This document shows, in pieces, positions 297-61,728 of a stretch of 64,000 nucleotides of DNA. The DNA lies in NCBI GenBank assembly GCA_017402445.1, contig JAFPME010000011.1:1-64000 (forward strand). Reading direction: 5' to 3'. A model generated the notes under the pieces. That model was not told the DNA's origin. It was given only the letters and a program-made list of their open reading frames with translations, and made no database searches. Within the stretch, counting starts at the first letter, position 1. Each line of letters opens with the position of its first letter. The translations under genes and the position numbers were made by a program. Origin of the DNA: Prevotella sp. Lineage in GTDB: Bacteria > Bacteroidota > Bacteroidia > Bacteroidales > Bacteroidaceae.

Positions 297-636
297 AAAT
301 CTCGGTGGGTTTTCCAAAATAAAAATCTGGTGGACGCGTACGCGCGAATTATGAGAAAGTTTTAAAGCATTGGAAACAAAGGACTTGTGTTTTCTTTACA
401 TTTTTCGGGCTTTCAAAATGACTCATTTTACACTTGAAAATGGCGCATTTTGTCGTGCTGAATGATTCATTCCGACGAACAGAATGAGCCATTTTGCGAT
501 GTAAAACGGGCCATTTTGAAAAACAGAAAGAAAAATATTCAGTTTTTGTCCGATTCTTTTACCAAAGCAACCGTTTCCGTCTTTGTAGCATGAAGTAAAA
601 ATGTGAAACCACTTTTTTGATAAAAATATTTACAAT
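297..636 (+). repeat. Interspersed palindrome-array repeat, copy A
   Basis: This is one of five related non-coding elements in the window. The core (414-518) has five 17-bp pseudo-palindromes of the form CAAAATGrsyCATTTTG, starting at 414, 436, 458, 480 and 502, an exact 22-bp period. The left arm has the shared motif GGACGCGTACGCGCGAA (from about 332) and an AT-rich segment ending TTTCTTTACATTTTTC. The right arm has TTTTTGTCCGATTCTTTTAC and ends near TTTACAAT. The extreme left end of this copy is less well conserved than in the others. Boundaries are approximate. Confidence 0.8.
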
Positions 637-748
637 CGCAGTTCTCAATCCTCAGTTCTCGGCTTTCAACTTTCAGAACTCGGCTTTCGTTTGTAACGCC
701 AGTTCGCGTTTCGATGAAACATTGCAATAGCGCCGCGCCTCAAACATC

Positions 749-2326
749 TTAATACATTCTCGGCCTCACATAGTGGATTCTGTAGATATGGTCAAAATGA
801 TGTTCCCAGTTGTTTTTGCCTTCACCGATCTGGAATCCGTAGAAACGGGTGCCCCTCTTCTTGTATTCGGGGAGTCTGTTCAACAGGTCCTCTGTCGTTC
901 GGGGAATGAGGAAGTCGGTTATCCACAACACGTCGGCATTCATGTAGTGATTGTCTCCGCCCTCGAGCAGGGCGAAAGTGAGGCGCAGCATCTTCTCGGC
1001 GTCAGTGCCGCCACCGATAAAAGGAAAGTCACCGCGCACGAACTCGCTGTCTTTCTCCGGCTTCATTCCCATACGCTGCATGGCGCGTTTGCGCAGACGG
1101 GCACGCAGGTCGATGGGACGAATGGACACCGAGAAGTCGATGAGGAAGCAGTCGCGCTGCAGTTCCTCTGCCGTCTGTTCCAGTTTCGAGAGCAGCGCCA
1201 TCTCTATTTTCTGCGGCACGCCGTACATGCTGGCTGATGAATCGACGCATACAATCATCGGACCTCTTCTGACGGCGCGCTGCTGATGCAGTTGGCGAGC
1301 TGGCTTGTTCAGCTCCGATCGATAGCGGAACGTCTGCAGCCTACGCGTAAGGAATTTCTTGTAGAAGAGATCCTCCAGCTGCTCGTCGGCATACTGCGTC
1401 AGTTCCAGTGGTAACAGGGCATTGATGTCGTTGCCCACGGTGACACCTTCAATGTCACTGCCCGCAGAATGGTCTATCTTAAAGCGGAAACCCGTCTGCA
1501 CGGCGATATGGTCACGTCCTTCCTCTTGCACCGTTCGTCCCATGCGGCGCGCCACATCTCCGATCTCCGGGTATTTGTTTTGAATCCTGACAATGTTCAG
1601 TTTCTTCTCAAACTCACTCTCCGAGAACTGTCCGTCCATCAGATCCCAAGCCTGAGTCATCAAGGCTTCGTCGGCATTGTCGAAACGGTGGTGCTGCTCG
1701 CTCATCATTTTCATCATATTCGTAAGAGCAGCACGCGTCGAAGGCATCTTCTTGCGCACCTTTTCCCCTACCTCGCGCTGCATCTGCCGCTCCAGGGCAC
1801 CAGCCCATTCCTGCCGAAGCTTCTCCCAGTTGGCCTCGTCGCGCCATCCTTGTCGTTGGAACAGCTTCTTGGCGAACTCCTTGTTGAATCCATCCTCGCG
1901 GTGCTTTTCGTCTATGGCCGTGAGGAGCGACTGCCAGTTGTCCTTTTTCTTCTGCACCGACCACTCGCAGGTCTTCCCCATCTCGTTGCGTTCCGACCAC
2001 GACTTCTGCATGCAGAATTTCTCTTCGTGCAGACAGTCCACGACGAAGCGCCCCATGGTTTCGTAGAACACCTTCCCTGCCATCTTGCTGGTCAGCACGC
2101 GTGCCTGAATCATCGCGTCATGCGTCACTTCCACGATATAGCGCAGGATGGGGTCGTCGTACATCTGCCACGGATAGTCGGTGAGCACGTCGGTCTCCAT
2201 CTCAGGTTGCTCTCCGTTCCTCACGAAGTTCTCCAGCAACTTGAGATAATCACCAGCCGTCATCCTTCGCCTCCGGATGCGCTCCATCCAGTAGTCTACA
2301 TCGTTGTTTTTGCGCGTGTCAGTCAT
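749..2326 (-). CDS. VWA domain protein, ViaA-like
   Basis: A 525-residue protein with a C-terminal von Willebrand factor A domain. The metal-binding MIDAS site is intact: DSSAS at residues 362-366, the conserved Thr in GGGTD near 441 and an Asp in WITD near 471. The N-terminal two thirds is helical and highly charged, with no signal peptide or membrane segment, so it is expected to be cytoplasmic. Its start overlaps the end of the upstream AAA+ gene by 8 bp, so the two are translationally coupled. This is the layout of the RavA/ViaA (MoxR-VWA) chaperone pair, in which the VWA protein partners the ATPase. The client in this organism cannot be told from sequence. Confidence 0.82.
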   Translation of the reverse strand: MTDTRKNNDVDYWMERIRRRRMTAGDYLKLLENFVRNGEQPEMETDVLTDYPWQMYDDPILRYIVEVTHDAMIQARVLTSKMAGKVFYETMGRFVVDCLHEEKFCMQKSWSERNEMGKTCEWSVQKKKDNWQSLLTAIDEKHREDGFNKEFAKKLFQRQGWRDEANWEKLRQEWAGALERQMQREVGEKVRKKMPSTRAALTNMMKMMSEQHHRFDNADEALMTQAWDLMDGQFSESEFEKKLNIVRIQNKYPEIGDVARRMGRTVQEEGRDHIAVQTGFRFKIDHSAGSDIEGVTVGNDINALLPLELTQYADEQLEDLFYKKFLTRRLQTFRYRSELNKPARQLHQQRAVRRGPMIVCVDSSASMYGVPQKIEMALLSKLEQTAEELQRDCFLIDFSVSIRPIDLRARLRKRAMQRMGMKPEKDSEFVRGDFPFIGGGTDAEKMLRLTFALLEGGDNHYMNADVLWITDFLIPRTTEDLLNRLPEYKKRGTRFYGFQIGEGKNNWEHHFDHIYRIHYVRPRMY

Positions 2327-3854
2327 CCAGTTTCTCCAGTTCCTGTCTTGTCAACGCTATTTCATTGTAGAGTCCCTTCAGGTAGTCGGCCACTTCCCGG
2401 CAGTCGTCTTCGGAGAGGAAGATGTTGCCGAGGATTCCTTTCTCCCGTGTTCTCACCCTGTCGCCCAGAGTTTCCAGTTCGCTGTAATAGTCACGGTCGG
2501 TCACCTTGCCCTTGGCTACGGGAATCTGCTGTTTCTCACCTGGCTTCAGCTTCTCCACCTCGAACCTTACGCCGTCGATATACAGGTGATGGTCGTCGCG
2601 CGCCAGAATCACCTGTCGCGCACCTTCGGGGAAGTCCGCGCCGTCATAGCCGCGGATAATGGTTCGCACGGGGTTCTTCGGGTCTCTGTAGAGCACGCCC
2701 AACTGTCCCTTTTCAGCTATTTTGTAGTCTCTCATGCGTTGGTAGTCGGCAATGAAGACGTAACTGTTGCCCGTGTCATGGTCAACCAGATGGTAGTAGA
2801 AACCGTCGAAGATTTTCTTGTCGCCGTCCCTTTTCATGATGGAAGCCTTGGCTTTCCATGTGGCGCCATGCATTCTCTTCACTCTGATGTCAGCCTCAAT
2901 GGACTGTTTCATCTTGGCCAGGTCGGTGCCGTATTCAGCAAAGAGCGAGCGAATGACGATACGACGGATGTCATCCCGCTCGTCGGGCTCGTTCCACAGA
3001 CAGTGGTAGACGGGCAGGAGGTCTGTCAGATCCACTTCCTTTCGGTCTTGCAGGAAGGCCGAAGCCCGCAGCAGCTTCACGATCTTCTTCCATCGGCGGT
3101 CGCTGACATACACTTGTCGGCGCTCGTCACTGCTCGTCAACGCGACGGCCCCCAGCGCCTTGCGGATGACATGAATACACCCCAGCACGCTGTCGGCCAC
3201 GGCAATGCCCCGTATCTGCTCCGACCATTCGGCGTATTCCTCATCCGTCACCTGCCATTCGCTGTCGCACGCGACGTCGCCGTCGGCATCGTCGAGCAGC
3301 ATCCGGTCGAAACTCTCCTGTTTCTTGACGCAACCCGTTTCCACTCTGACAAGGAAACGGTCCCACAGCGCCTCCAGTCCTTCGCCCTGGGCAGGCAGTT
3401 CGTTGCTGGCAGCCACGAGCAGCTTCAGCGGCAGTCGGATTTCGCGTTCACCGTTGCGGAACAGTTTCTCGTTGATAACGGTCAGCAACGTGTTCTGTAT
3501 GGCAGGCCCCGCCTTCCATATCTCGTCTAAGAAAACGACGTCGGCCGTGGGCAGATAGCCGTCGATGGCGCGCTCATACTTGTCCGACGACTTCAGCAGC
3601 GAGATGGAAACAGGCCCGAAGATCTCGTCGGGCGTGGAGAAGCGCGACATCAGGTATTCAAAACTCCGTGCATCCCTGAATGCACTCTTCAGCCTTCGCG
3701 CCACCATCGACTTGGCAACCCCCGGCGGTCCCAGTATGATAATGCTCTCACCGGCGATGGCGGCCAGCAGTGCCAGCATCACCTCCGTCTCTTTTTCATA
3801 GATTCCCCTGTTCATTTCCTGAAGCAGGGCCTGTATACGTTCTTTCATCTTCAT
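2319..3854 (-). CDS. MoxR-family AAA+ ATPase, RavA-like
   Basis: A 511-residue AAA+ ATPase. Walker A is GPPGVAKS (about 42-49), Walker B is VVFLDE (about 106-111), and a sensor-1 Asn lies in AASNELP near 151. The MoxR-type core fills the first ~310 residues. The C-terminal ~200 residues form the extended region typical of RavA and include a charged lysine-rich segment. It is the first gene of a two-gene unit with the VWA protein. By family knowledge, RavA hexamers remodel protein complexes together with ViaA. A TATATTTG box on the minus strand at 4002-4009 is a plausible promoter, giving a leader of about 145 nt. An alternative Met is two codons in. Confidence 0.85.
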   Translation of the reverse strand: MKMKERIQALLQEMNRGIYEKETEVMLALLAAIAGESIIILGPPGVAKSMVARRLKSAFRDARSFEYLMSRFSTPDEIFGPVSISLLKSSDKYERAIDGYLPTADVVFLDEIWKAGPAIQNTLLTVINEKLFRNGEREIRLPLKLLVAASNELPAQGEGLEALWDRFLVRVETGCVKKQESFDRMLLDDADGDVACDSEWQVTDEEYAEWSEQIRGIAVADSVLGCIHVIRKALGAVALTSSDERRQVYVSDRRWKKIVKLLRASAFLQDRKEVDLTDLLPVYHCLWNEPDERDDIRRIVIRSLFAEYGTDLAKMKQSIEADIRVKRMHGATWKAKASIMKRDGDKKIFDGFYYHLVDHDTGNSYVFIADYQRMRDYKIAEKGQLGVLYRDPKNPVRTIIRGYDGADFPEGARQVILARDDHHLYIDGVRFEVEKLKPGEKQQIPVAKGKVTDRDYYSELETLGDRVRTREKGILGNIFLSEDDCREVADYLKGLYNEIALTRQELEKLDD

Positions 3855-4306
3855 GGTAACTCAATTTGTCAGAGACAGTCCGACGTGTTGAAATGGATTT
3901 TTCAGATGCCTGAACACAGAAGCCGGTCTGTCAGATCAGTGAACATCCCATTGTGTTCCGGCACGAACAGGAAGTTCATTAGGTTCTCTGCTATACTATT
4001 GCAAATATAAGCATAATTTGTAATACCACCTAACTTCATGTTGATTTACACCTCACTTTTTGCACTTTTTGTGTTCTGGATGCTTGTCTTGTCGGTTGTT
4101 TCTTGATAGCATTTTCCTCCGACAAATCCTCGGAATGGCTGTAAATCCCCAAAATATTTAGCAGAATAAAAGAAAATACGTATCTTTGCAACAGGATTTG
4201 AGACGAATAGGAAAGCCAAAAGAAGCGAACAAGACTACCGTTCTGCTCATTCCATCCCATATTGGTATTTTTGAACAGGAAAAAAAGAAAAAAGGAATCA
4301 AAAGAA
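3855..4306. other. Divergent intergenic region, ravA / flavodoxin-like gene
   Basis: No gene is supported here. The region carries promoters for both flanking genes: a minus-strand TATATTTG box at 4002-4009 for the ravA side and a plus-strand promoter at 4157-4188. The DNA between is AT-rich and shows no further strong inverted repeat that I could find by eye. Confidence 0.55.
4157..4188 (+). promoter_or_regulatory. Bacteroidetes-type promoter
   Basis: A near-consensus -33 element (TTTA, 4157-4160) is separated by 20 bp from a perfect -7 element TATCTTTG (4181-4188). It lies about 118 nt upstream of the flavodoxin-like start codon. Confidence 0.6.
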
Positions 4307-4924
4307 ATGAAGGTATTATTGATTAACGGAAGTCCCAAAGCCAACGGGAACACGTTCGCGGCATTGAGCGAAGTGGCCAAGACATTGAACGCGGAAGGCG
4401 TCGAAACGGAGATTGTCAACATCGGCAAGCAGCCGGTTCCGGGCTGCATCGCATGCGGCATGTGCGGAAAGTCAGGACGATGCACGTTCCACGACGACCC
4501 GTATTTCAAGGTCGCAAGGGCCGTGAAGGACGGTATAGACGGGCTGGTGGTCGGCTCTCCGGTCTACTATGGCGGCCCCAACGGCTCGCTGTGCGCCCTC
4601 CTCGACCGTGTGTTCTACTCGCTGTCGTCCCACTTGCAGTACAAACCGGCAGCCAGCGTAGTGGTATGCCGGCGCGGAGGGGCCTCGGCCGCTTTCGACC
4701 GGCTGAACAAATACTTCACCATGACGAACATGCCCGTGGTGAGTTCGCAGTACTGGAACATGGTCTACGGTCAGACTCCCGGCCAGGCTGCGCTCGACGA
4801 GGAAGGCATGCAGACCATGCGCACTCTGGGTCGCAACATGGCTTGGATACTGAAGAATCTGAACGTGAGCGAGAAAGGTCATCCTGAAGAGGAGTCCCGC
4901 GTCTGGACGAACTTCATCCGGTAA
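4307..4924 (+). CDS. Flavodoxin-fold NAD(P)H-dependent FMN reductase
   Basis: A 205-residue protein from the ATG at 4307. A TTG at 4262 would add a lysine-rich tail without homology character. It opens with the FMN phosphate-binding pattern of the NADPH-dependent FMN reductase/iron-sulfur flavoprotein superfamily (LLINGSPKANGNTF). It then has a Cys-rich stretch (CIACGMCGKSGRC, about residues 48-60) as in flavodoxin-family oxidoreductases, followed by VVGSPVYYGGPNG, the flavin-contact loop. It is probably a cytoplasmic reductase of quinones or other electron acceptors. The gene stands alone and converges with the GH3 gene. Confidence 0.8.
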   Translation: MKVLLINGSPKANGNTFAALSEVAKTLNAEGVETEIVNIGKQPVPGCIACGMCGKSGRCTFHDDPYFKVARAVKDGIDGLVVGSPVYYGGPNGSLCALLDRVFYSLSSHLQYKPAASVVVCRRGGASAAFDRLNKYFTMTNMPVVSSQYWNMVYGQTPGQAALDEEGMQTMRTLGRNMAWILKNLNVSEKGHPEEESRVWTNFIR

Positions 4925-4941
4925 GATCTTTACAGAATCTG

Positions 4942-4982
4942 GTGAGGTCCGTGTGCCAAGAAAGAGAAGACACGAACCTCAC
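4942..4982. terminator. Bidirectional terminator-like hairpin
   Basis: 13-bp arms, GTGAGGTCCGTGT (4942-4954) and ACACGAACCTCAC (4970-4982), pair with a single G-T mismatch between the convergent flavodoxin-like and GH3 genes. There is no long T-run on either side, so it may act as a 3'-end stabiliser rather than a strong intrinsic terminator. Confidence 0.5.
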
Positions 4983-5024
4983 ACTACTTATGACCATAGC
5001 CGGGAGCTTCCGGCAAGTAACAGC

Positions 5025-7262
5025 CTACGGCACAAAAAGGCAGCACTCACCGCGCAAAGGCAGACTGGCGGACGTGCCACCCACGCCCACAGAGACCTTT
5101 CCCGGCTCGAACATCCACGTCTGCGCAGCTTCGTCCCAATGGCAGAGGTCGGACAGACGGATGGGAATGGTCACTTCCTTACGCTCGCCAGCCTTCAAAG
5201 CCACGCGCCGGAAGCCCTTCAGCTCCTTGATTGGCCGCTCGATGGCCGATTCCGGCCGCGATACATACACCTGCGCCACTTCCTCGGCATCTACATCGGA
5301 CGTGTTGGTGAGTACGAACCCGACCTGAATACCGTCGGGCGTACGCTTCAACGAGAGGTCGCTGTACTGGAACTTGGCGTAGGAAAGCCCGTGTCCGAAG
5401 GGATAGTCCACGGCAACACCGTAGCAGTCGTACCACCTGTAGCCCACCAAGTCCTCTTCGGCATAGCGTGCCAATAGCTGTTGCTTTCTCTCGTTCGACT
5501 GGTTGTTGACCAATCCCACGAAGATGTCGCCCTGTTGATTGCCGACCATCAGCTGAGGATAGGAGCCAGTAGCGTATGCCGGAACATCGTTGAGCTGACG
5601 CGGCCAGCTCATGGGCAGCTTGCCCGAAGGTGAAACACTGCCTGTGAGCACCTCGGCCAGGGCCTGTCCGCCCATGGAACCGTTGAACCATGATGCCACC
5701 AAGGCCCCCGACACGCTGTCGACAGTCCTGACATCCACCGGTCCGCCCGACACAACGACCGTCACCAAGCGCTTGTTCGCCTTTGCCAAGGCGCGTACCA
5801 GTTCGTCCTGACCCGAAGGCAGCTCAATCGATTTGCGGTCCGAGCCTTCTGTTTCCACCTCGCGGTTGTCGCCGGCGAAGAAGATGACGAGGTCTGCACG
5901 CTTCGCAGCCTTCACAGCCTGCGCCATCAGCTGCCGGTCGGCCTTCTGTTGCGGGCGCTGTTTCTTGTCACGACTCTGACGGTCGAAGCTCTTGTAACCC
6001 GGCACGTAGGTGATGGTGGCCTTGCCGGCAAGCAGCGACTGCAGTCCTTCGAGCGGTGTTATCTCGCGTCGGGTCTTCACTCCGGCCCCCACTCCACCCT
6101 GTGCCATCTTCGTGACAGCGTTCTCGCCGATAACCGCTATGCGCCGAACGCGCTTCAAGTCGAGGGGCAACAGTCCCTCGTTCTTCATCAAGACGATGGA
6201 CCGCCGCGCGACGTCCAAAGCTACGTTCATCTCTTCCTCGTTGCCGACGGGCCGTTTGTTGGCCTCTTCTTTTGCTATGGGTCGAACGGTCAGACGCACG
6301 CGGAGGATTTCCCTGACGCGCTGATCGACGACCGATTCGCTCACCTTGCCGGCCTTCACCGAGTCAAGCAACGCCTTTCCCAAGTAGCGGTCGCCCGGCA
6401 TCTCGACGTTCAGACCTGCCGCGACGGCATCAACGGTGGAATGAACGCCGCCCCAATCGCTGATCACCATGCCCGCGAAGCCCCATTGACGGCGCAGGAT
6501 GGTGTCAAGCAGAAGCGCATTCTCAGAGCACCACCGACCATTCACTTTGTTGTAAGCAGCCATCACGCCCCAGGCATCAGCCTCTCGGACCGCCATTTCG
6601 AAGGGTCGCAGGTAGATTTCGCGCATGGCCCGGTCTGAAATGCGCACATCGACAAATCCGCGGTAGTCTTCCTGGTTGTTCAACGCGTAGTGTTTCAGGC
6701 AAACTGCCGTCCCGTCGTCCTGTGCTCCGCGCGTATAGGCCACCGACAGCATCCCGCTGAGCAGCGGATCCTCGCTCAGATACTCGTAGGTGCGCCCACC
6801 CGTCGGGATGCGCTGGATGTTCATGGCCGGTCCAAGAATCATATCCTTGCCACGCCAACGTGCTTCACGGCTCATGGCACGGCCATAGGCGTAGGCCAAG
6901 TCGGTGCTCCAGGTGGCAGCCAATGCCGAACCGGTGGGGAAGAAGGTTGCCGAGTCGGTCGTCAGATGCAGCGAATTCCACGAGTGCGGCTCCATTTCCT
7001 CACGAATGCCGAACGGTCCGTCGGCATATTCCACGTCGGCAATCCCCAACCTTGGTATGCCTGCCGAGGAGAACATGTTCTTCCCGTGCAGCATGGCTAT
7101 CTTCTCTTCAAGCGTCATGCCCTTGATGATGTCGTCAATCTGCTGCTCGTGTTGCATCAGTCGTGAGCTAAGTGTCTGTGCCTCAACCTGTCCGCAAGCG
7201 CATCCCCAGCTCATGGCTCCCGCCACCAACATCTTGATGATTTGTCTTTTCGTCGTTTTCAT
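5025..7262 (-). CDS. Glycoside hydrolase family 3 beta-glucosidase
   Basis: A 745-residue secreted enzyme with an N-terminal signal peptide (about residues 1-28). The GH3 N-terminal barrel contains the nucleophile Asp in GMVISDWGG (near D269) and the substrate-binding KHYALNNQE motif (near 190). The second domain carries the Glu-containing EVETEGSDR loop, the probable acid/base region, near 455. A C-terminal fibronectin-III-like domain (about 660-740) is typical of the BglX-type subgroup. It is expected to release glucose, or related sugars, from beta-linked oligosaccharides in the periplasm. It starts 61 bp after the truncated gene upstream and may share its transcript. Confidence 0.9.
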   Translation of the reverse strand: MKTTKRQIIKMLVAGAMSWGCACGQVEAQTLSSRLMQHEQQIDDIIKGMTLEEKIAMLHGKNMFSSAGIPRLGIADVEYADGPFGIREEMEPHSWNSLHLTTDSATFFPTGSALAATWSTDLAYAYGRAMSREARWRGKDMILGPAMNIQRIPTGGRTYEYLSEDPLLSGMLSVAYTRGAQDDGTAVCLKHYALNNQEDYRGFVDVRISDRAMREIYLRPFEMAVREADAWGVMAAYNKVNGRWCSENALLLDTILRRQWGFAGMVISDWGGVHSTVDAVAAGLNVEMPGDRYLGKALLDSVKAGKVSESVVDQRVREILRVRLTVRPIAKEEANKRPVGNEEEMNVALDVARRSIVLMKNEGLLPLDLKRVRRIAVIGENAVTKMAQGGVGAGVKTRREITPLEGLQSLLAGKATITYVPGYKSFDRQSRDKKQRPQQKADRQLMAQAVKAAKRADLVIFFAGDNREVETEGSDRKSIELPSGQDELVRALAKANKRLVTVVVSGGPVDVRTVDSVSGALVASWFNGSMGGQALAEVLTGSVSPSGKLPMSWPRQLNDVPAYATGSYPQLMVGNQQGDIFVGLVNNQSNERKQQLLARYAEEDLVGYRWYDCYGVAVDYPFGHGLSYAKFQYSDLSLKRTPDGIQVGFVLTNTSDVDAEEVAQVYVSRPESAIERPIKELKGFRRVALKAGERKEVTIPIRLSDLCHWDEAAQTWMFEPGKVSVGVGGTSASLPLRGECCLFVP

Positions 7263-7323
7263 TCCTCAAAACTTTTTTATTATTTGCATTGTCCTCATTC
7301 AATTCACTTCATCTGAAAGCCTC

Positions 7324-8370: not shown

Positions 8371-8397
8371 GTCGTCACCGGCTGTTAAGATAGGTTG

Positions 8398-9228: not shown

Positions 9229-9388
9229 GTCGGCTGCAAAGGTACAATTTTTTTAGGAAAACCTAATGGGTTGCACTTGAGAAAAAGACCACGCCACACT
9301 GTCGGACCGCCAATTGGCGTAAAACATAGACAGTACCGCCTATATTTCCTTAGTGCCACTCAGGGGCGGGGAACAAGCTGGAAAAAAG

Positions 9389-9802: not shown

Positions 9803-9819
9803 AATTCTCGATTTCATCG

Positions 9820-9827
9820 CAAAGGTA
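9820..9827 (-). promoter_or_regulatory. -7 element of the HxlR regulator gene
   Basis: TACCTTTG on the minus strand, 17 nt before the chosen ATG. No clear TTTG lies 19-21 bp upstream. The site fixes the start choice for the regulator. Confidence 0.5.
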
Positions 9828-9946
9828 GTCAAAAGAAACTTAATAACCGAACAGCATGCGTTAATCTAAGTTAACAGCTGCAAAACAGAATCCCCGTAAC
9901 TGCACAATTCCTACTTTTTGGTAACTATCCCACTGAAAAGTACCTT

Positions 9947-9978
9947 CTTGCAGGATTCAAAAAATTGACGTACCTTTG
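9947..9978 (+). promoter_or_regulatory. Promoter of the cupin gene
   Basis: A -33-like CTTG (9947-9950) and a perfect -7 TACCTTTG (9971-9978) are separated by 20 bp, giving a leader of roughly 30 nt. It lies in the spacer shared with the divergent HxlR gene, so repression or activation by that regulator is a reasonable inference. Confidence 0.65.
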
Positions 9979-10014
9979 CACTGAAATCATTAACATTTAA
10001 ACAATAAAAACATC

Positions 10015-10470: not shown

Positions 10471-10532
10471 CAGTCTGACGCTGCGGACTGCGTCGGGAGA
10501 AGTGCCTGAGAGCATTTTTCCGCCTGTAAACG

Positions 10533-10567
10533 AAGAGCAACGGGAGCCACGCTTCCGTTGCTCTTTG
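10533..10567 (+). terminator. Terminator of the cupin gene
   Basis: 14-bp arms (10533-10546 and 10552-10565) with one G-U pair and a 5-nt loop, followed by TTTG. It overlaps the edge of repeat copy B. Confidence 0.65.
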
Positions 10568-10930
10568 TAAATATTTCTAACCAAAAAATCTTGTACGGAT
10601 TTTCTTTCATTCTACGAAGACGGAAGCAGTGGTTTCGGTAAAAGATCCGTACAAAAACCGAAGAAAAATCTTCGGCGTTTTCAAAACGGCCCATTTTACA
10701 TCGCAAAACGGCTCATTTTGCTCGTCAAAATGATTCATTCTGAACGATGAAATGGGCCGTTTTGAGGTGTAAAATGGGCCGTTTTGGAGGCCGTTATTTT
10801 GTCAATAAATTACAACTGCTTCGTTTTCAATCTTTTATAACTACCGCAAAATTCGCGCGTACGAGTCCGTCTGGTTTTTATTTTTCAGCGATGGCACTCT
10901 CAGAGGCCAAAAACGAACTTTTTGTCAACA
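10566..10930 (-). repeat. Interspersed palindrome-array repeat, copy B (inverted)
   Basis: Same family as the element near 0.3 kb, but in opposite orientation. The five 17-bp pseudo-palindromes start at 10682, 10704, 10726, 10748 and 10770, again an exact 22-bp period. Reading the minus strand, the left arm starts with TTGACAAAAAG and carries CTCTGAGAGTGCCATCG and GGACTCGTACGCGCGAA. The right arm carries a TTTTACCGAAA motif and ends near ATATTTACAA. It fills the gap between the convergent cupin and DUF4353 genes. Confidence 0.85.
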
Positions 10931-10994
10931 TAATTCAGAAATCTGAAAAGCCTGAACTTCGTCACGAAACAGAACCTCAGGCACTGAAACCGAG

Positions 10995-12874: not shown

Positions 12875-12913
12875 AAGCTTCAATCTATAAAAAAACAGTA
12901 TTATTAATGTTGG

Positions 12914-16784: not shown

Positions 16785-16810
16785 TCGAACAGGAATCATC
16801 ATCCAATCGA

Positions 16811-16909
16811 GTAGGAGGTAAACACTAATCGTAGGTGTTTATCTCCTACTTTCGTGTTTACCGACCTCTCACACCACCGTACGTGCCGTTCGGCATACGG
16901 CGGTTCCTA
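16811..16909 (-). ncRNA. Group II intron domains V and VI
   Basis: Domain V is a hairpin whose strands ACCGCCGTATGCCG and the pairing GCACGTACGGTGGT (about 16873-16905) match the catalytic domain of bacterial introns. Domain VI pairs GGTAAACAC (16854-16862) with GTGTTTACC (16817-16825), positions on the plus strand. The stop codon of the intron protein lies at the edge of domain V, as usual for this class. Confidence 0.75.
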
Positions 16910-18313
16910 ATTTGGGTGCCATTCGAGATATGAATCCAGTAGGCATGGATAGCCCTGTTTCTTCAAGTTGCCATTGGAGATGGTACTCAGCAGGATTGGA
17001 CTGCGTGATATGCGCCAGTAACCCAAACGCGTGTTGCCCCACATATAGGCTTGGTGCTTCTCAACACCACACTTGATGAGGTTTGCCACCTTAGTCTTGG
17101 GGTTCTTCCATGCCTTCCATATACACATACGGATGCGACGGCGAAGCCATTCGTCGGTCTCTTCAAGGAATCGCTTCATGTTGGCAAGGTGGTAGTACCC
17201 CACCCAACCGCGCACGTACTCCGACAGTTTCCGCTTCCTCTTGTCGTAGCCCCAGCCATTGCTTCGACGTGTCAGGTCTTTCAACGCGGACTTCATCTTC
17301 GACTTTGACTTGGGATGAACACAGAGTTGGCATCTGCCTTTCTGCACGTAGAAGGAATAACCGAGGTATTTCACACCTCCCACATACGACACGACGGTCT
17401 TTTCCTTGTTCACCTTCAAATGGAGTTTCTTCTCGACAAACGCTGTTATCGTCTCACGCACTCGCTCTGCCGCCCGCTTGGACTTGCAGAATATCAGCGC
17501 ATCATCGGCGTAGCGGACAAACGGGTGTCTGCGACGTATGAGTTCCTTGTCCAGCTCGTTAAGCATAATATTGCTCAACAGAGGGCTCAGCGGTCCTCCC
17601 TGCGGAGTACCCTCATCGCTCGACTCAAACAGCCCGTGACTGATTACACCGCTGCGCAGATATTTGTGTATAAGACTGACCACACGACCGTCCTTTATCG
17701 TACGGCCAAGTATCTCTATGAGGCGGCTATGGCACACCGTGTCGAAGAAACGCTCAAGGTCGAGGTCGACTACATACTTATAGCCTTCATCGACTATCCT
17801 CTGCGCTCCCCTCAGTGCGTCGTGACAGCCCTTCCCAGGACGGAAACCGAAACTCCAATGGGAAAACTGCTTCTCATAGATTGGGGTCAGTACTTGATTG
17901 ATGGCTTGCTGCACCAACCGGTCTACGACCGTCGGGATACCCAAAAGGCGCATCTTGCCATTGTCCTTCGGTATCTCTACGCGACGGACGGGATTCGGAC
18001 GGTAGGAACCGTCCTGCAAGGAGCGGGTCAGAGTTTCCTTGTTGGCCAGAAGCCATGGAAGCAGATGCTCGCATGGCATTCCGTCGATACCGCCACAACC
18101 CTTGTTCATCATCACCGATTTATAGGCGCGGTTCAGATTCGACGGGTCGAGGATAGCTTCCAACAGATGCTCCTTGTCGAATGGAACTTCCACGATGTTG
18201 TCTTCTGTCATCCACATGAAAGTCTGCACCCCCTCATACCTTTCGGATTCCGTCCTATTCCTTTGAGGGTGGCCAATGACATCTGACAGAGTTTTCTGCA
18301 TTCTTGCTTTCAT
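16907..18313 (-). CDS. ltrA: Group II intron reverse transcriptase/maturase
   Basis: A 468-residue intron-encoded protein. The reverse transcriptase domain covers about 50-330, with GIDGM (75-79), RVEIPK and LGIPTVVDRLVQQAI (RT2), GFRPGKGCHDAL (RT3), DLERFFDTV (RT4) and GTPQGGPLSPLL (235-246). The catalytic motif YADD is at 268-271. The maturase (X) domain follows at about 340-440. There is no DNA-binding/HNH endonuclease extension, as expected for class C. It promotes splicing and retrohoming of its host RNA. The frame is intact, so the intron may be active. Confidence 0.92.
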   Translation of the reverse strand: MKARMQKTLSDVIGHPQRNRTESERYEGVQTFMWMTEDNIVEVPFDKEHLLEAILDPSNLNRAYKSVMMNKGCGGIDGMPCEHLLPWLLANKETLTRSLQDGSYRPNPVRRVEIPKDNGKMRLLGIPTVVDRLVQQAINQVLTPIYEKQFSHWSFGFRPGKGCHDALRGAQRIVDEGYKYVVDLDLERFFDTVCHSRLIEILGRTIKDGRVVSLIHKYLRSGVISHGLFESSDEGTPQGGPLSPLLSNIMLNELDKELIRRRHPFVRYADDALIFCKSKRAAERVRETITAFVEKKLHLKVNKEKTVVSYVGGVKYLGYSFYVQKGRCQLCVHPKSKSKMKSALKDLTRRSNGWGYDKRKRKLSEYVRGWVGYYHLANMKRFLEETDEWLRRRIRMCIWKAWKNPKTKVANLIKCGVEKHQAYMWGNTRLGYWRISRSPILLSTISNGNLKKQGYPCLLDSYLEWHPN

Positions 18314-18741
18314 ACGGTAACGTTCAATTACTTATCGCTTAATTTAGGTTCAGTCCTTCACGGAGCGTTATCGACTACTCCGCTACTATGACCTCGGCTG
18401 ACTTCTCACGGTTCGTTGTTACTGCGCACCTTTCGTAATAGAAACTATTCAATGCGTCCGTGAGACCTCCTCGGATAAGGGCAATGTCTTTCCATCTTAT
18501 GCCCGCCACATTTACACCAACCGTTCCGAATAGCAATAGGGCTTTGGTTTGTTGTGCAACCTTACCCACGGTCAAATGCCTTGTATGTGGTTCCTGTTCG
18601 TCAGGCCAGATGTTTGCCGCCGACTTCTTTCAGATTCCACCTCGCAGTGGACACCCTTGTCTTGGCCTGTGTGATTTCCGCTATTAGGGCTCACTCGGGA
18701 CTCTCACCCGTTAGACATTGCTCATGCCGAGCATACACAGC

Positions 18742-26917: not shown

Positions 26918-26960
26918 CCGCAACGTGAAAAACGAGGCAGGACTTCCGTAGGAAAAAAGC

Positions 26961-27329
26961 GGACAAAAAGCTCCGTTTTGCGCTCTGAGAGTGCCATCGT
27001 TCTGAAATAAAAATCCGGCGGACGCGTACACGCGAAATATGAGAGAGTTTTAAAATACTGAAAGCAAGCGACTTGTATTTTCTTTACATTTTTCACGCTT
27101 TCAAAACGACTCATTTTACACTTCAAAACGGCCCTTTTCATCGTTCAGAATGAATCATTCTGGCGAGCAGAATGGGCCGTTTTGCGATGTAAAACAGCTC
27201 ATTTTGAAAAACGGCACGACATTTTCTCCTGTTTTGTTTGGATTTTTTACCGAAAAAGAACGGATCGGCACTCTAAAATGATAAAAAATCTGTGCAGGAT
27301 TTTTCGGTACAAAATGTTTACAATTGACA
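26961..27329 (+). repeat. Interspersed palindrome-array repeat, copy C
   Basis: Five 17-bp pseudo-palindromes start at 27102, 27124, 27146, 27168 and 27190 (exact 22-bp period). The left arm has GGACAAAAAG, CTCTGAGAGTGCCATCG and GGACGCGTACACGCGAA. The right arm shows an inverted pair TACCGAAAAA (about 27249) and TTTTTCGGTA (about 27300), and ends near GTTTACAA. It lies downstream of the EnvC-like gene and is the only copy located between genes of the same orientation. Confidence 0.85.
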
Positions 27330-41279: not shown

Positions 41280-41341
41280 AAACACAGGAAAAAAGACTGC
41301 CTTAACACTTATGAAACAAGCGACGAAGAAATCTGAAAAAG

Positions 41342-41706
41342 CTTGACAAAAACCCCGTTTTTGCCTTCTGTGAAGGCCATCATTTCAAAATAAAAATCAG
41401 ACGGACGCGTACGCGCGAAATATGAAGACTTTTTAAAACACTGAAGACAAAGCACTTGTATTTTCTTTACAAAAGAATGGCTTGTAAAATGACTCATTTT
41501 GCAATTCAAAACGGTCCATTTCATCGTTCAAAATGAATCATTCTGTCGCGCAGAACGGCTCATTTTGCAAAGTAAAACGGCTCATTTTGAAAAAGCATCC
41601 GGTTTTTCTTTCGTTTTTGTCCGATTCTTTTCACGTTTCAACCCAAATCGTTGTTCTAAAACGAACAAAAATCCATGCAGAATTTTTCGGTAACTTTTAT
41701 TGACAA
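41342..41706 (+). repeat. Interspersed palindrome-array repeat, copy D
   Basis: Five pseudo-palindromes start at 41485, 41507, 41529, 41551 and 41573, an exact 22-bp period. The left end is TTGACAAAAACCCCGTTTTTG, itself an inverted repeat, followed by GGACGCGTACGCGCGAA. The right arm carries TTTTTGTCCGATTCTTTT and ends at TTTTTCGGTAAC and TTGACA. It lies between convergent nadD and the N-acyltransferase gene, directly followed by the 65-bp tandem array. Confidence 0.85.
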
Positions 41707-52804: not shown

Positions 52805-52849
52805 GAAAACGAGGAAACGACCACAGAACATTAAGAAAATGCAATAAGT

Positions 52850-54136: not shown

Positions 54137-54176
54137 AAGGCCGGTTCACAGTAGAAAAAAGAAAAAGAAATACATC

Positions 54177-55286: not shown

Positions 55287-55356
55287 TCGCCTGCGGTCCA
55301 AAGACAGGCATACCGAAGCAGAATCGGTGAAACAAAAAAAAGAAACAACAAGAAGA

Positions 55357-56742: not shown

Positions 56743-56778
56743 TTAACGATCATCCTGACATTAAAGAAGGAAACAAAC

Positions 56779-57759
56779 ATGATGAAATTGCACATCAACT
56801 GGAAGAAAACAGCCATCGCCCTGCTCGACATCCTGCTTGCAGCCTACCTGGTGCTGGCCATGACCTCGTTCAACAAACCGGACGAGACACAGAAGATGTG
56901 CACAAAAGTGACCATCAACATCACCGACGAGAACACCAACGGCTTCCTCAGCCCGCCTGAAATCAAGCGCATCCTCGAAGGGAAGAAGCTCTACCCGCTG
57001 GAAAAAAGAATGACCACTGTCAATCCGCGCGACGTCGAGGAGGTTCTGAAAAAGAGTCCTTTCGTCAGCACCGCCGAATGCTACAAGACACAGAACGGAC
57101 ACGTCTGCATCAGCGTCACGCAGCGACTGCCCATCGTCCGCATTAAGAGCATCACCGGCGACGACTACTACGTCGACGACAAGGGAGGCATCATGGCCAG
57201 CTCGAAGTACACCAGCGACCTCGTCATCGCATCGGGCTACATCACAAAGGAGTTCGCACAAGTCTACATCACACCACTCATGCAGGTGTTGATGGAGAGC
57301 GAGTTCTGGAAAAACCAGATTGTACAGATCAACGTCATGCCCGACAAAGGCATCGAACTCGTGCCACGCGTGGGCGACCACATCATCTACATGGGCTACC
57401 TGCCGACCGCCAAGACAAAGGAGGAACGCTTTGCACGCATCAGCGACTTCCTCGACAGGAAGCTCGAACGGCTGGAGAAGTTCTACCGCTACGGCCTCAG
57501 CCAGGCTGGATGGAACCGTTACCACTACATCAGCTTAGAATACGACAACCAAATCATCTGTAAAAAGAACGCCAACCTCTTCCCGTTGCCTGAACCGGCC
57601 AAGCCTGCCGAGACGGACAGCGCGAAGCAGAAGAAACCCGACGACGAAACCATTACAGAGCTTCCGCGCGACAGTTCAGGCCCTGACAAGCCGAAGAGCA
57701 CGCCGCCGGCCGTGAAGAAACAAGAGAAAAAGAACGAAAACAACAAAAAACAAGTATAG
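56779..57759 (+). CDS. ftsQ: Cell division protein FtsQ
   Basis: 326 residues with one N-terminal membrane helix (about 12-28). A POTRA-like domain follows (about 45-110, including NGFLSPPEIKRILEGKKLYPL and KKSPFVSTAECY), then a beta domain to about 255 and a Lys/Pro-rich tail ending in KKQEKKNENNKKQV. It bridges cytoplasmic and periplasmic divisome parts via FtsL. The charged C-terminal tail is longer than in E. coli. The gap to ftsA is 3 bp. Confidence 0.88.
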   Translation: MMKLHINWKKTAIALLDILLAAYLVLAMTSFNKPDETQKMCTKVTINITDENTNGFLSPPEIKRILEGKKLYPLEKRMTTVNPRDVEEVLKKSPFVSTAECYKTQNGHVCISVTQRLPIVRIKSITGDDYYVDDKGGIMASSKYTSDLVIASGYITKEFAQVYITPLMQVLMESEFWKNQIVQINVMPDKGIELVPRVGDHIIYMGYLPTAKTKEERFARISDFLDRKLERLEKFYRYGLSQAGWNRYHYISLEYDNQIICKKNANLFPLPEPAKPAETDSAKQKKPDDETITELPRDSSGPDKPKSTPPAVKKQEKKNENNKKQV

Positions 57760-57762
57760 CGT

Positions 57763-59229
57763 ATGGCAGAATTTATCGTAGCAATCGAACTCGGATCATC
57801 CAAGATGACCGGTATTGCGGGAAAGAAGAACATCGACGGCAGCATCACCGTGCTCGCCGTGGTGAAGGAAGAGTCAAGCTCTTTCATCCGCAAGGGCGTC
57901 ATTTACAACATCGACAAGACCGCCCAGTGTATCTCGAACATCGTCAAAAAGCTCACCGCGAAACTCAAGACAAGCATCACACATGTCTACGTAGGCGTGG
58001 GCGGGCAGTCGATACGCAGCATGAAGAACGTGATTGTGAAGAATCTGCCTGCCGACACCATCGTCACACAGGAGATGGTGAACGAACTGATGGACGCCAA
58101 CCGCAATATGACGTACCAGGATCAGGAAATCCTCGACGCAGCCACGCAGGAATACAAGGTTGACAACCAGTATCAGATGGACCCTGTAGGCATTCAGTGC
58201 TCAAGGCTCGAAGGCAACTTCCTCAACATCCTGTGGAGAAAAATGTTCTACCGCAACCTGAACAAGTGCTTCGACCTCGCAGGAGTAGCCATCGCCGAGA
58301 TGTATCTGGCACCGCTCGCGCTGGCCGACAGCGTACTGACCGACGCCGAGAAGCGCTCAGGATGCGCTCTCGTGGACCTCGGAGCTGACACCACCACCGT
58401 CAGCGTTTACTACAAGAACATCCTCCGCCACCTGGCTGTCATCCCACTGGGCAGCAACAACATCACAAAGGACATTGCATCGCTGCAGATGGAGGAAAGT
58501 AACGCTGAGCAGATGAAGCTCAAGTACGGCAGTGCCTGGACCGACAACGGCGAGATAGACAACCAGCTGACACTCAGCATCGACGCCGAGCGCAAGGTGG
58601 AACAGCGCAAGTTCATCGAGATTGTAGAGGGGCGAATGGAGGAAATCATTGAAAACGTGTGGTACCAAGTGCCCACAGAATATGCCGACCGGCTGCTCGG
58701 CGGCATCATTCTCACCGGCGGCGGTGCCAACATGAAGAATATCGAAACGGCTTTCCGCAACCACACACACATCGAAAAAATCCGGATTGCCAAGTTCGTG
58801 CAGCTCAGCATCACAGCAAAGGACAACGACATCACTGCTCGCAACGGCATGATGAACACCGTGCTCGGACTGCTCGCCAAGGGCGACATGAACTGTGCAG
58901 GCAGCGAGGTGGACCCCAACGCCGACCTCTTTGCCGAGAACAAGCCCGCCACACAGGCCACCGACATCCACCGCGAGCCCCGAAAGGCCAACGAGCTGAG
59001 CCCGGGCGTCGTGCAGACAGAAGCCGAGAAGCTGAAGGCCGAGGAGGAACGACGCAAGCAGGAAGAGGCTGAAGAGGCCATCCGCAAGGCCGAGATCGAA
59101 GCCGAGGAGGCTCGCCTCAAGGCTGAAGAGGAAGAACGCAAGCGCAAGGAGGACAGCGGTCTGAAGAAGACAGGCAAGAAACTGAAGAACTTCCTGAAGA
59201 AACTCATAACTGAAACCGAGGACGAATAA
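57763..59229 (+). CDS. ftsA: Cell division protein FtsA
   Basis: A 488-residue actin-fold ATPase that tethers FtsZ to the membrane. It shows phosphate-binding IELGSSKMTGIAGKK at the N-terminus, the 1C/SHS2-region KTSITHVYVGVGGQSI, LVDLGADTTTVSVYY (near 205) and ILTGGGANMKNIE (near 320). After the core (~400) comes a Glu/Lys/Arg/Ala-rich coiled stretch (about 423-470). The protein ends in an amphipathic helix, KKLKNFLKKLI, which should serve as the membrane-targeting sequence. The coiled linker is an extension relative to E. coli FtsA. Confidence 0.93.
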   Translation: MAEFIVAIELGSSKMTGIAGKKNIDGSITVLAVVKEESSSFIRKGVIYNIDKTAQCISNIVKKLTAKLKTSITHVYVGVGGQSIRSMKNVIVKNLPADTIVTQEMVNELMDANRNMTYQDQEILDAATQEYKVDNQYQMDPVGIQCSRLEGNFLNILWRKMFYRNLNKCFDLAGVAIAEMYLAPLALADSVLTDAEKRSGCALVDLGADTTTVSVYYKNILRHLAVIPLGSNNITKDIASLQMEESNAEQMKLKYGSAWTDNGEIDNQLTLSIDAERKVEQRKFIEIVEGRMEEIIENVWYQVPTEYADRLLGGIILTGGGANMKNIETAFRNHTHIEKIRIAKFVQLSITAKDNDITARNGMMNTVLGLLAKGDMNCAGSEVDPNADLFAENKPATQATDIHREPRKANELSPGVVQTEAEKLKAEEERRKQEEAEEAIRKAEIEAEEARLKAEEEERKRKEDSGLKKTGKKLKNFLKKLITETEDE

Positions 59230-59333
59230 GTCTCAGTTCAGGTCTTTTCACATCAGGCAACGGGCCGCTATGAGGAAACTCCGGGGCCTGTTCCTCCCAG
59301 ATAAAATCCAGTAATCCCAGAAAAAACAGAATT

Positions 59334-60659
59334 ATGGCAGACAATAATAAATTCGACATACTCGACTTCGGAGAGCCCGAAAAAGAGAATAGCATCATCA
59401 AAGTGATTGGTGTAGGCGGTGGCGGCGGCAATGCCGTGAACCACATGTACCGCGAAGGCATCCACGACGTGACCTTCGTGCTCTGCAACACCGACAACCA
59501 GGCGCTCAACGACTCGCCCGTGCCCGTGCATCTGCAGCTCGGCAAGGAGGGTCTCGGAGCAGGAAACAAGCCCGAAAAGGCCCGTCAGGCAGCCGAAGAG
59601 AGCATCGACGACGTGCGCAACATGCTCAACGACGGCACTAAGATGGCTTTCATCACCGCCGGCATGGGCGGCGGAACGGGCACGGGTGCCGCTCCGGTCA
59701 TCGCGCGTGTCAGCAAGGAGCTCGACATTCTCACCGTGGGCATCGTCACCATTCCCTTCCGCTTCGAAGGCCCGAAGAAGATTGACCAGGCCCTCGACGG
59801 CGTGGAAGAAATGGCCAAGCACGTGGATGCACTGCTCGTCATCAACAACGAACGGCTGCGCGAAATCTATCCTGAGCTCACCGTGCTCGACGCTTTCGCC
59901 AAGGCCGACGACACACTGTCCGTGGCAGCCAAGTCGATAGCAGAGATCATTACCGTGCACGGACTCATCAACCTCGACTTCAACGACGTGAAGACAGTGC
60001 TGAAGGACGGTGGCGTGGCCATCATGTCTACCGGTTTCGGCGAAGGCGAAGGCCGCGTGAAGAAGGCCATCGAAGACGCCCTGAACTCACCGCTGCTCAA
60101 CGACAACGACGTCTTCAACTCGAAGAAGATCCTGCTCAGCATCTCCTTCTGCTCGGACAAGCAGTCGAAGACGGGCCTGATGATGGAAGAGATGAACGAC
60201 GTGAACGACTTCATGGCCAAGTTCGGCAACGACTTCGAGATAAAATGGGGACTGGCCACCGATCCCGAGCTGGGCGACAAGGTGAAAGTGACCATCCTCG
60301 CAACGGGATTCGGCATCGAGGACGTAGACGGCATGGGCGCACACTTCACCAAGCGCACGCAGGAAGAAGCCGACCGCATCGCTGCCGAGGAAGAGAAAGC
60401 CGCCGAACGCCAGGACCGCCGCAACCGCTACTACGGCAAGGACGGCTCCACAGCCCAGTACAAGCGGCGCCCGCACATCTTCATCTTCCGCCAAGAGGAC
60501 CTCGACAACGACGATGTTATCAGCGACGTGGAGCAAACACCGACCTACAAGCGCACGCGCCAGGTGCTCGACGAGATCCGCAACAAAGCCGCAGGCCACG
60601 TGAAGGCCAACGACGACGACAAGCGTGAAGCCATTCAGGGGACCATCAAGTTCGGATAA
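59334..60659 (+). CDS. ftsZ: Cell division protein FtsZ
   Basis: A 441-residue tubulin-like GTPase. The N-terminal glycine-rich strand is KVIGVGGGGGNAVNHM, the tubulin signature is GMGGGTGTGAAPVIA (near 106), and the T7-loop region has NLDFNDVKTVL. The tail after about 345 is basic and variable. The usual C-terminal FtsA-binding peptide is not at the very end; the nearest match is TPTYKR at about 402-407, followed by ~34 more residues ending in GTIKFG. It polymerises into the division ring. Confidence 0.95.
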   Translation: MADNNKFDILDFGEPEKENSIIKVIGVGGGGGNAVNHMYREGIHDVTFVLCNTDNQALNDSPVPVHLQLGKEGLGAGNKPEKARQAAEESIDDVRNMLNDGTKMAFITAGMGGGTGTGAAPVIARVSKELDILTVGIVTIPFRFEGPKKIDQALDGVEEMAKHVDALLVINNERLREIYPELTVLDAFAKADDTLSVAAKSIAEIITVHGLINLDFNDVKTVLKDGGVAIMSTGFGEGEGRVKKAIEDALNSPLLNDNDVFNSKKILLSISFCSDKQSKTGLMMEEMNDVNDFMAKFGNDFEIKWGLATDPELGDKVKVTILATGFGIEDVDGMGAHFTKRTQEEADRIAAEEEKAAERQDRRNRYYGKDGSTAQYKRRPHIFIFRQEDLDNDDVISDVEQTPTYKRTRQVLDEIRNKAAGHVKANDDDKREAIQGTIKFG

Positions 60660-60750
60660 GCCATTCGCCCGGCCTTGCATAAGGAACAGCTCTGACTGAC
60701 CCGCACGAAAAAGAAACCGTTAGTCAAACCTTTTTAAAAAAAATAAAACA

Positions 60751-61200
60751 ATGACACTATTCGATCAGATAAGCAACGACATCAAGGAGGCCATGAAGGC
60801 ACGTGACAAGGTTCGCCTCGAAACCCTCCGAAACATCAAGAAAGTATTCCTCGAAGCAAAGACAGCTCCGGGTGCCAACGACACTCTCGAGGATGCCGAC
60901 GCACTCAAGATCATCGCCAAGCTGGCCAAGCAGGGACGCGAAACGGCCGTCACCTACACACAGGCAGGGCGTCAGGACCTGGCCGACGCAGAGCTGGCAC
61001 AGGTGGAAGTGCTGGAAAGCTACCTGCCCAAGCAGCTCGACGAAGCCGAAATCGAAGCCGTCGTGCGCGACATCATCGCGCAGACAGGCGCCACGAGCAT
61101 GAAAGACATGGGCAAGGTGATGGGAACAGCCACCAAGCAGCTGGCCGGACAGGCCGACGGACGCGTGGTCTCTGCCATCGTCAAGAAGCTCTTATCATAG
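60751..61200 (+). CDS. yqeY: GatB/YqeY domain protein
   Basis: A 149-residue all-helical protein of the YqeY family, related to the tail domain of the GatB amidotransferase subunit. It starts TLFDQISNDIKEAMKARDKVRLETLRNI and ends GTATKQLAGQADGRVVSAIVKKLL. The family binds tRNA-like substrates, but its role is not established. It lies 91 bp after ftsZ on the same strand and is followed by a strong terminator, so it probably ends the dcw transcript. Confidence 0.88.
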   Translation: MTLFDQISNDIKEAMKARDKVRLETLRNIKKVFLEAKTAPGANDTLEDADALKIIAKLAKQGRETAVTYTQAGRQDLADAELAQVEVLESYLPKQLDEAEIEAVVRDIIAQTGATSMKDMGKVMGTATKQLAGQADGRVVSAIVKKLLS

Positions 61201-61283
61201 ACATACCGTACACATAACAGACGAAACTTAATACTACAAGAAAGTAAAAACCTAACTCATACAACTAAAAACCATAATACGTG

Positions 61284-61318
61284 CCGCCCCCACTCGCGAG
61301 AGTCAGGGCGGTTTTTTT
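61284..61318 (+). terminator. Intrinsic terminator after yqeY
   Basis: A GC-rich stem pairs CCGCCC (61284-61289) with GGGCGG (61306-61311), extended by partial ACTC/GAGT pairing, and is followed by seven T residues (61312-61318). This is a textbook rho-independent terminator at the end of the dcw cluster. Confidence 0.88.
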
Positions 61319-61363
61319 ATGCACTTGCCGTACATGACGGACCGTCGCCGCCGTCTGAAGTAT

Positions 61364-61728
61364 CCTGACAAAAAGCCGGAAAAAGTGCTCTGAGAATCGA
61401 AAATTCTGAAACTAACTTGAAGACGGTCGCATATACGCGAATTTCAGAGATGTCCTAAAACGCTGGACTTCAGCATCTTGTCTTTTCTTTACAAAATAAA
61501 CGGTTAGCAAAATGGGCCATTTTACGCTTCAAAACGGCTCTTTTTGGCGCGCAGAATGATTCATTTTGAAGCGCAGAACGGGCCATTTTGCGATGTAAAA
61601 TGAGCCGTTTTGAAAATCAGGCAGGTTTTTCGGCCTGTTTTGTAAGGATTATTTTCCGAAGAAAGTGCTTCCGGCCTCAAAAAACGAACAGTTTTCCTGA
61701 CAGGATTTTTCGGTATTTTTTGTTGACA
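61364..61728 (+). repeat. Interspersed palindrome-array repeat, copy E
   Basis: Five pseudo-palindromes start at 61508, 61530, 61552, 61574 and 61596 (exact 22-bp period). The left end is TGACAAAAAG with CTCTGAGAAT. The GC-rich left-arm motif is diverged here (GACGGTCGCATATACGCGAA), making this the most divergent copy outside the core. The right end is GGATTTTTCGGTA then TTGACA. It lies between the dcw terminator and the convergent recO gene. Confidence 0.82.

Follow-up and report, generated by a model that had tools for sequence, protein, structure and literature searches.

The first 64,000 nucleotides of contig JAFPME010000011.1 from Prevotella sp. assembly GCA_017402445.1 (G000:C29:1-64000, hereafter the window) carry five copies of a dispersed, intergenic, non-coding repeat of about 375 bp, the fixed part of which is a helically phased array of dyads. 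In all five copies, reading and alignment give a 105-bp core with five 17-bp dyads at exact 22-bp steps, set between a left and a right arm. Thus, an earlier note on this DNA was correct in the places of the elements, in the inversion of the second one and in the unit number and step of all five (Table 1). By eye, the left ends lie about 9-35 bp further out than it gave (at about 262, 10939, 26950, 41332 and 61354), and its consensus CArAAyGrsyCATTyTG is an approximation, being mismatch-free in only 3 of the 25 units (0-3 mismatches each). The array class is wider than these five copies, and what is new about it is a geometry that is conserved throughout the genus. Spacing is fixed, A/T tracts are conserved, centres vary, placement is intergenic and some arrays have resided in place for long. 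As to function, we tentatively favour an array that acts as duplex DNA, being a platform for phased bending or putative protein docking, which could well be correct but falls short of probable.

The spacing was followed first of all in the window's own genome (G000; assembly of 1.87 Mb in 44 contigs, 50.69% complete). Among equally spaced runs of at least four palindromes in 400 kb of this genome, 12 have a spacing of 22 bp and none has any other spacing between 12 and 44 bp. Since 22 bp alone yields such runs, the regular spacing is not a product of chance. No 22-bp run of this kind was present in the 400-kb samples of two relatives, and G016 gave one even-centred run at 41 bp. A blastn search with the third element (E3) returned at least 40 sites (the best 40 of 85 candidates, with E2 and E5 outside those), and a sequence-only model (R1), made from 33 cores that align gap-free across 121 columns, found at least 79 (150 of 703 candidates scored), 78 of them near full length and one partial. 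At 79 of 79 listed sites the genomic length equals the model span, i.e. there is no net core indel. These sites came via the core, and copies anchored by their arms were examined as a separate control in a 464-kb sample, using the arms of E1, E3 and E4, which were themselves excluded. In nine of the 10 further copies, at least one arm pair gives a core of reference length (with the E4 arms, two of these are longer by 1), while the core of the tenth is longer by 1 or 2. A sixth, degenerate unit occurs in 2 of 19 sampled arrays. Pairwise comparison of 33 copies, which were retrieved by blastn with a core-centred query and give values that are not independent, yields 0.239 substitutions per site in the left arm, 0.214 in the core and 0.396 in the right arm, and 0.189, 0.000 and 0.110 indel events per 100 aligned bp, respectively. 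Because the core substitutes about like the left arm yet lacks the indels seen in the arms (0 versus 0.11-0.19 per 100 bp), selection probably acts on array spacing, a fair inference that the earlier note had drawn from the drift of the arms around a constrained array.

Beyond this genome, the class follows the pattern (C/T)AAAA-N7-TTTT(G/A) every 22 bp in species-specific versions, the 7-bp centres differing by species. G000 was placed in one genus with G017, which is identical to the P. falsenii DSM 22864 sequence over 13.7 kb, so that the name Prevotella is correct for the genus. The junction of units 4 and 5 of the window had no exact match among the named genomes, from which its own record may be missing. 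Of the relatives searched with model R1, 13 of 35 in the same genus matched weakly and 0 of 24 others matched. Where one locus was read in each of nine relatives, a script called 22-bp AAAA-N7-TTTT arrays in eight, and the ninth (G016) has a degenerate array by eye. The dyads are palindromes throughout in G000, as first described; in P. falsenii and several other relatives, however, dyad symmetry is confined to the AAAA/TTTT ends and the 7-bp centre is asymmetric. A dyad step of 22 bp places an A- or T-tract every 11 bp along one helix face, which supports the helical phasing that had been proposed. In samples of about 400 kb, P. falsenii and G004 have many arrays, G000 has fewer, and G016 and G024 have essentially none, counts varying with script thresholds (42-52 in P. 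falsenii). Pairs of strong units at 22 bp total 384 (G000 50, P. falsenii 120, G004 37, G108 161, P. nigrescens 16), as against one pair each in G000 and P. nigrescens and none in P. falsenii, G004 and G108 at 21 or 23 bp. Likewise, strict three-unit runs in six samples number 105 at 22 bp, one at 21 bp (in G000) and zero at 20, 23 and 24 bp. A looser scan of P. falsenii gave 48 three-unit runs at 22 bp and 25 at 23 bp; the latter are register echoes, because a 22-bp run is overlapped by 23 of them and a threshold unit underlies 24. Hence, the constancy of unit number and spacing expected from the window holds within G000, whereas across the genus unit number ranges from about 3 to 7 and spacing hardly varies.

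When 35 arrays from nine genomes were aligned, in windows chosen at fixed 22-bp steps and thus gap-free by construction, the A/T tracts formed the conserved columns and the centres were not conserved. Within the genus, a model from this alignment (R2), whose sources are P. nigrescens and eight of the genomes later matched, has matches at E <= 1e-4 in 99 of the 200 genomes sampled (46 of the 86 good ones), including the eight contributors. Outside the genus, and setting the window's own genome aside, 3 of 197 genomes of the order match. As 21 candidates per genome were scored, these figures are not copy counts, and single matches were not individually read. A further survey of 80 dnaB loci from Prevotella-type genomes called arrays in eight, including P. 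falsenii, P. disiens, P. brunnea and P. bivia, and by period 15 are at 22 bp, two at 21 bp and one at 23 bp; by eye, the rows of P. amnii and two of the three from P. bivia look AT-rich and doubtful. No array is present in 21.5 kb of P. pallens, which is closely related to P. falsenii.

Placement was assessed in four genomes over gaps of at least 200 bp, with genes called by a simple open reading frame (ORF) rule. Only 1 of 134 arrays lies inside a long ORF (0 of the 19 sampled in G000), and short ORFs overlap some arrays. Convergent gaps hold 39 arrays per 85, divergent gaps 26 per 93 and tandem gaps 56 per 228 (p = 0.001), an excess at convergent genes, and in G108 an array is found in 47 of 104 gaps. 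Within tandem gaps, arrays nearer the upstream stop account for 15 of 17 in P. falsenii, 7 of 9 in G004, 14 of 24 in G108 and 2 of 6 in G000. A promoter or terminator module was rejected as a description of the element: there is no set orientation of neighbouring genes among the 37 window-type copies (out of 46) that have a gene on each side, and scans of two elements (E2, E5) gave few terminator-like sites, with 3 versus 0.6 in shuffles around E2 and 2 versus 0.8 around E5. For the array itself, summing the A/T-tract vectors at 10.5 bp per turn yields 7.1-11.5, compared to 2.9-3.4 in adjacent DNA.

Under the platform reading, the array would be a curved, in-phase duplex that is read for shape and phase. 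One dyad-symmetric, tract-reading protein, either a nucleoid protein or a gyrase-type wrapper, would bind it cooperatively where transcription units end in long gaps, loosely as bacterial interspersed mosaic elements (BIMEs) are thought to be bound. The element would spread and be kept as a non-autonomous repeat, and the 7-bp centres, not being what is read, could turn over between species while the spacing could not. Gyrase or a nucleoid protein is a candidate reader because E. coli gyrase is described as having flanking arms with a 10.75-bp GC period, with gyrase sites overrepresented in BIME-2 (PMC6379681). The roles of mobile repeat and platform are compatible and can be combined in one element, and the protein-site and mobile-element candidates of the earlier note may therefore both hold. 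A bolder version, possible although rather doubtful, is a genus-wide geometric code, in which nothing but how A/T tracts are spaced and arranged as dyads (11 + 11 bp) would be inherited and selected. One conserved, putative protein that wraps DNA or polymerises on it would read this arrangement, and the sites, hundreds in a genome, could then swap the intervening sequence between species without losing function. Such a code, if true, would be a bacterial counterpart of a positioning signal between transcription units. Already as a docking or bending platform, the array would turn Prevotella into a natural experiment: genomes that hold tens to hundreds of phased sites exist beside many sister species that lack them, so that phased tracts, gyrase wrapping and the handling of supercoils between convergent genes would become directly testable.

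Several observations weigh against a platform. With 101 of the 200 sampled genomes of the genus lacking a match, the array is dispensable for about half of them, and most or all of it is missing from the sister species at three of seven mapped syntenic sites, i.e. it turns over. G004 alone shows no excess in convergent gaps. At 10.0 bp per turn the A/T-tract excess shrinks or vanishes, and, since tracts were the criterion by which arrays were chosen, the curvature figure is circular in part; moreover, a strict alternation of A and T tracts is unnecessary for curvature alone. Adjacent exact inverted copies in G004 fit hairpins better. Finally, the conservation could reflect young copies only, but 20-25% divergence and genus-wide constancy argue otherwise.

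A purely selfish, non-autonomous mobile repeat, in which the array would be a recognition or packaging site for the mobilising enzyme and of no benefit to the host, is on the whole unlikely. It would account for copies in all gene contexts with shared arms and for the sites at which arrays come and go. Seven syntenic sites were mapped, with the array common to both species at four and absent or mostly absent at three. One P. falsenii array is missing from G108, P. nigrescens and P. pallens; it lies in an insertion of about 460 bp (L241:8560-9020), which carries the 22-bp array, inverted IS982-type ends (by eye) and, near its edges, an 8-bp direct repeat with one side offset by two bases (by eye), a possible duplication. 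Conversely, one G108 array is missing from P. falsenii. In P. falsenii, ends resembling ACGTRARTTCGGYRTAAGAA occur within 500 bp of 17 of 42 arrays, and 5 of the 42 lie between two inverted such ends (a recount, since the earlier figures of 20 and 7 of 47 included five arrays twice, their locus overlapping another). Ends of this type also border genes for IS982 transposases in P. nigrescens and G108, whose scores exceed the cut-off of the NCBIfam IS982 model. In other genomes, however, arrays between IS982-type ends amount to 1 of 53 in G108 and 0 of 6 in P. nigrescens, 0 of 20 in G004 and 0 of 19 in G000, and 464 kb of G000 hold no such end pair. Nor were terminal inverted repeats seen by eye at the sharp ends of nine aligned copies of one G000 subtype. 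The hallmarks of an IS982-type miniature inverted-repeat transposable element (MITE), namely terminal inverted repeats with a target duplication, were thus not found in G000, other end types not having been systematically searched.

The four shared sites also speak against mere passage of a selfish repeat. Three are common to P. falsenii and G108 (alignments of 2.6-5.3 kb) and one to P. nigrescens and G108 (3.2 kb). In two of the three P. falsenii/G108 pairs, whole 7-bp centres are exchanged (e.g. CCGTAGG for GCGGCTC) with linkers mostly kept, and the third has fewer differences and a 1-bp length difference in the last unit; the P. nigrescens/G108 pair has identical centres. Furthermore, a P. 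nigrescens array without arms (L206:2301-2410) fills the gap between the maf and gamma carbonic-anhydrase genes, which is about 110 bp longer than the gap in G108, where the counterpart is degenerate unit-like sequence only; this array may have grown in place. A carried passenger has no need to keep its spacing, and array-rich P. falsenii has no match to the transposases associated with repetitive extragenic palindromes (RAYTs). Were the element only selfish, it would still unite PINSR, a described Prevotella repeat, and unnamed repeats across the genus in one class, and would be a repeat shown to keep its helical geometry while much of its sequence changes. Inverted pairs of the IS982-type ends in P. 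falsenii loci L153-L172 are mostly 135-141 bp apart (13 of 24 pairs below 700 bp); they form a short MITE-like family whose ends resemble those of MITE239 as printed in PMC4596501. An origin from phages or plasmids was rejected, E3 having no match in either the phage or the plasmid collection. The P. falsenii-type pattern matches one viral contig (63 kb), 112 bases into a 7.4-kb stretch, which was taken as putative flanking host DNA.

A hairpin element that works as RNA (through stem-loops at 3' ends, as a terminator or by stabilising mRNA) or as an extruded cruciform is improbable, even though folding at first sight suggests it. The core is an overall quasi-palindrome that matches its own reverse complement, and the E3 stretch 27080-27217 folds at -46.1 (+) and -53.5 (-) kcal/mol, far beyond shuffles on both strands (z = -7.07 and -7.44). 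Among 33 window-type cores, however, neither a long hairpin (78.6% of cells paired versus 79.8% in shuffles) nor five short ones (88.5% versus 88.9%) exceed shuffles, and none of five pairing measures does so in the covariation analysis. The true hairpin register is far better than slid registers, which is expected where units resemble each other. Long-hairpin mismatches of the G-T and A-C kind are about equally frequent (0.087 and 0.093), so that no strand is favoured. These counts fit duplex DNA and not selected RNA; RNA structure was consequently rejected for the window family, and the structured 3'-end RNA among the candidates of the earlier note finds no support there.

In G004, 26 of 110 combinations of adjacent units can pair at 15 or more of their 17 positions, compared to 3 of 67 for next-but-one units, and its loop-5 paired units have 24 different centres among 34 pairs, as hairpins would have it, while the mismatches of these pairs comprise 35 G-T and 51 A-C, unoriented. 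Such adjacent inverted copies would be given by template switching as well as by hairpin selection. Matches of the fourth centre to the second or third are slightly commoner in P. falsenii than in shuffles (p = 0.029), whereas G108 is not enriched (p = 0.73). Centre matching within G108 arrays (second with fourth unit up, third with fourth down) was taken as subfamily history and not as structure. As an observation on the same arrays, the second and third unit centres differ in 45 of 45 (L219-L238), which may reflect founder history or subfamily descent. A hairpin role would also agree with the preference of arrays for gene 3' ends in three of four genomes and with the terminator-like hairpin adjoining E2; on the other hand, divergent genes flank 26 of the 121 arrays that were placed, and terminator-like sites around E2 and E5 are few.

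That the arrays have no function, having been made regular by recent amplification, slippage and template switching, is very improbable: block swaps of centres and adjacent exact inverted copies are what template switching would give, the 101 matchless genomes would be no surprise, and subfamily descent confounds shuffle tests (as with the second and third units of G108), but slippage alters unit number and spacing, whereas spacing is nearly fixed genus-wide and the core lacks the indels found in the arms.

Dispersed intergenic repeats are a known kind of element, and the earlier note's statement that no described family was recognisable needs correction, as PINSR is very likely a relative. 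PINSR is a 188-bp repeat with 177-184 intergenic, non-coding copies in P. intermedia, which is also reported from P. nigrescens, P. falsenii and P. disiens, lacks terminal inverted repeats and has about three quarters of its sites conserved between two strains (PMC4755523). The window element shares with it the intergenic placement, high copy number, non-coding nature and lack of terminal inverted repeats. In contrast, PINSR is shorter and limited to one clade, and the available part of PMC4755523 mentions no internal 22-bp array. P. falsenii and P. nigrescens, in which PINSR is reported, both carry 22-bp arrays, and a relationship is therefore very likely. The P. falsenii arrays sit inside a shared stretch of about 200 bp, and by blastn the P. 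falsenii element is 76% identical to P. nigrescens sequence over 70% of its length, with eight places in NZ_CP082843.1. Array scans of P. nigrescens found eight arrays in one 100 kb and none in a second 100 kb, which is rich in conjugative-transfer genes by annotation. E3 itself is without a blastn match in the plasmid collection, which includes the P. nigrescens record to which the P. falsenii element matches. The arrays of P. falsenii and P. nigrescens are thus very likely the core of PINSR, which would very likely be the described member of the array class, with the window element very likely a distant relative; the PINSR consensus was not part of these comparisons.

BrickBuilt, a MITE of Porphyromonas gingivalis and thus also from the Bacteroidales, similarly consists of a leader, short tandem repeats and a tail, and is always intergenic. 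However, it has 23-nt bricks, 1 to 22.8 per copy, IS5-type terminal inverted repeats and 19 copies (PMC4596501), unlike the G000 element with 22 bp, five units in nearly every copy and no terminal repeats seen; furthermore, the arrays described here keep tract geometry across a genus. Membership in BrickBuilt was ruled out by the 22-bp step, the near-constant core length in arm-anchored copies and the lack of visible terminal repeats. Repetitive extragenic palindromes (REPs) and BIMEs resemble the arrays in their many intergenic palindromic units, with alternating orientation in BIMEs, and in reported or proposed binding of proteins and gyrase (PMC2817692, PMC3733652, PMC6379681). REPs are linked to RAYT transposases (PMC2817692, PMC3733652), and Prevotella is not named in the available part of PMC3733652. 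A search with PF01797 (RAYT) was positive in 6 of 10 genomes (one weak match in G000, E 2.5e-7; one in G004; two in G010) and gave none in P. falsenii and G012. Its presence does not track array abundance, and mobilisation by RAYTs was rejected, array-rich P. falsenii having no match. Exact 22-bp phasing with free centres is not known as a feature of REPs. A-tract clusters and 11-bp A-T periodicity likewise have tracts in helical phase and are tied in the literature to curvature and supercoiling, but they are statistical and genome-wide, whereas the Prevotella array is a discrete, copied element of dyads at fixed spacing. No description of 22-bp arrays in Prevotella was found in the literature searched, most subscription papers lying outside it; PINSR and BrickBuilt come nearest.

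Table 1 Copies of the repeat in the window, with cores and neighbouring features
Feature	Position	Strand	Remarks
E1 element	262..637	+	left arm, core, right arm; starts GCTGAATTATG, finishes ATTTACAATC; ends by eye
E1 core	414..518	+	five 17-bp units, 22-bp steps
E2 element	10565..10939	-	inverted; ends by eye
E2 core	10682..10786	-	105 bp, five units
Terminator-like hairpin	10676-10657	-	after E2 core
E3 element	26950..27324	+	flanked by peptidase M23 gene and nrdD; ends by eye
E3 core	27102..27206	+	105 bp, five units
E4 element	41332..41706	+	flanked by convergent ORFs (stops 41279 + and 41954 -); ends by eye
E4 core	41485..41589	+	105 bp, five units
E5 element	61354..61729	+	flanked by yqeY-like gene and ORF at 61799; ends by eye
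E5 core	61508..61612	+	105 bp, five units

An Rfam scan of the window at the gathering score gave four matches, none of them at any of the five elements, namely parts of a group II intron and a tRNA. The intron lies at 16806-18651 (-), where parts of D1-D4, a match to Intron_gpII and, at 16907-18313, an ORF for an RVT/maturase were found, and the tRNA is a tRNA-Glu (TTC) at 62571-62643 (+).

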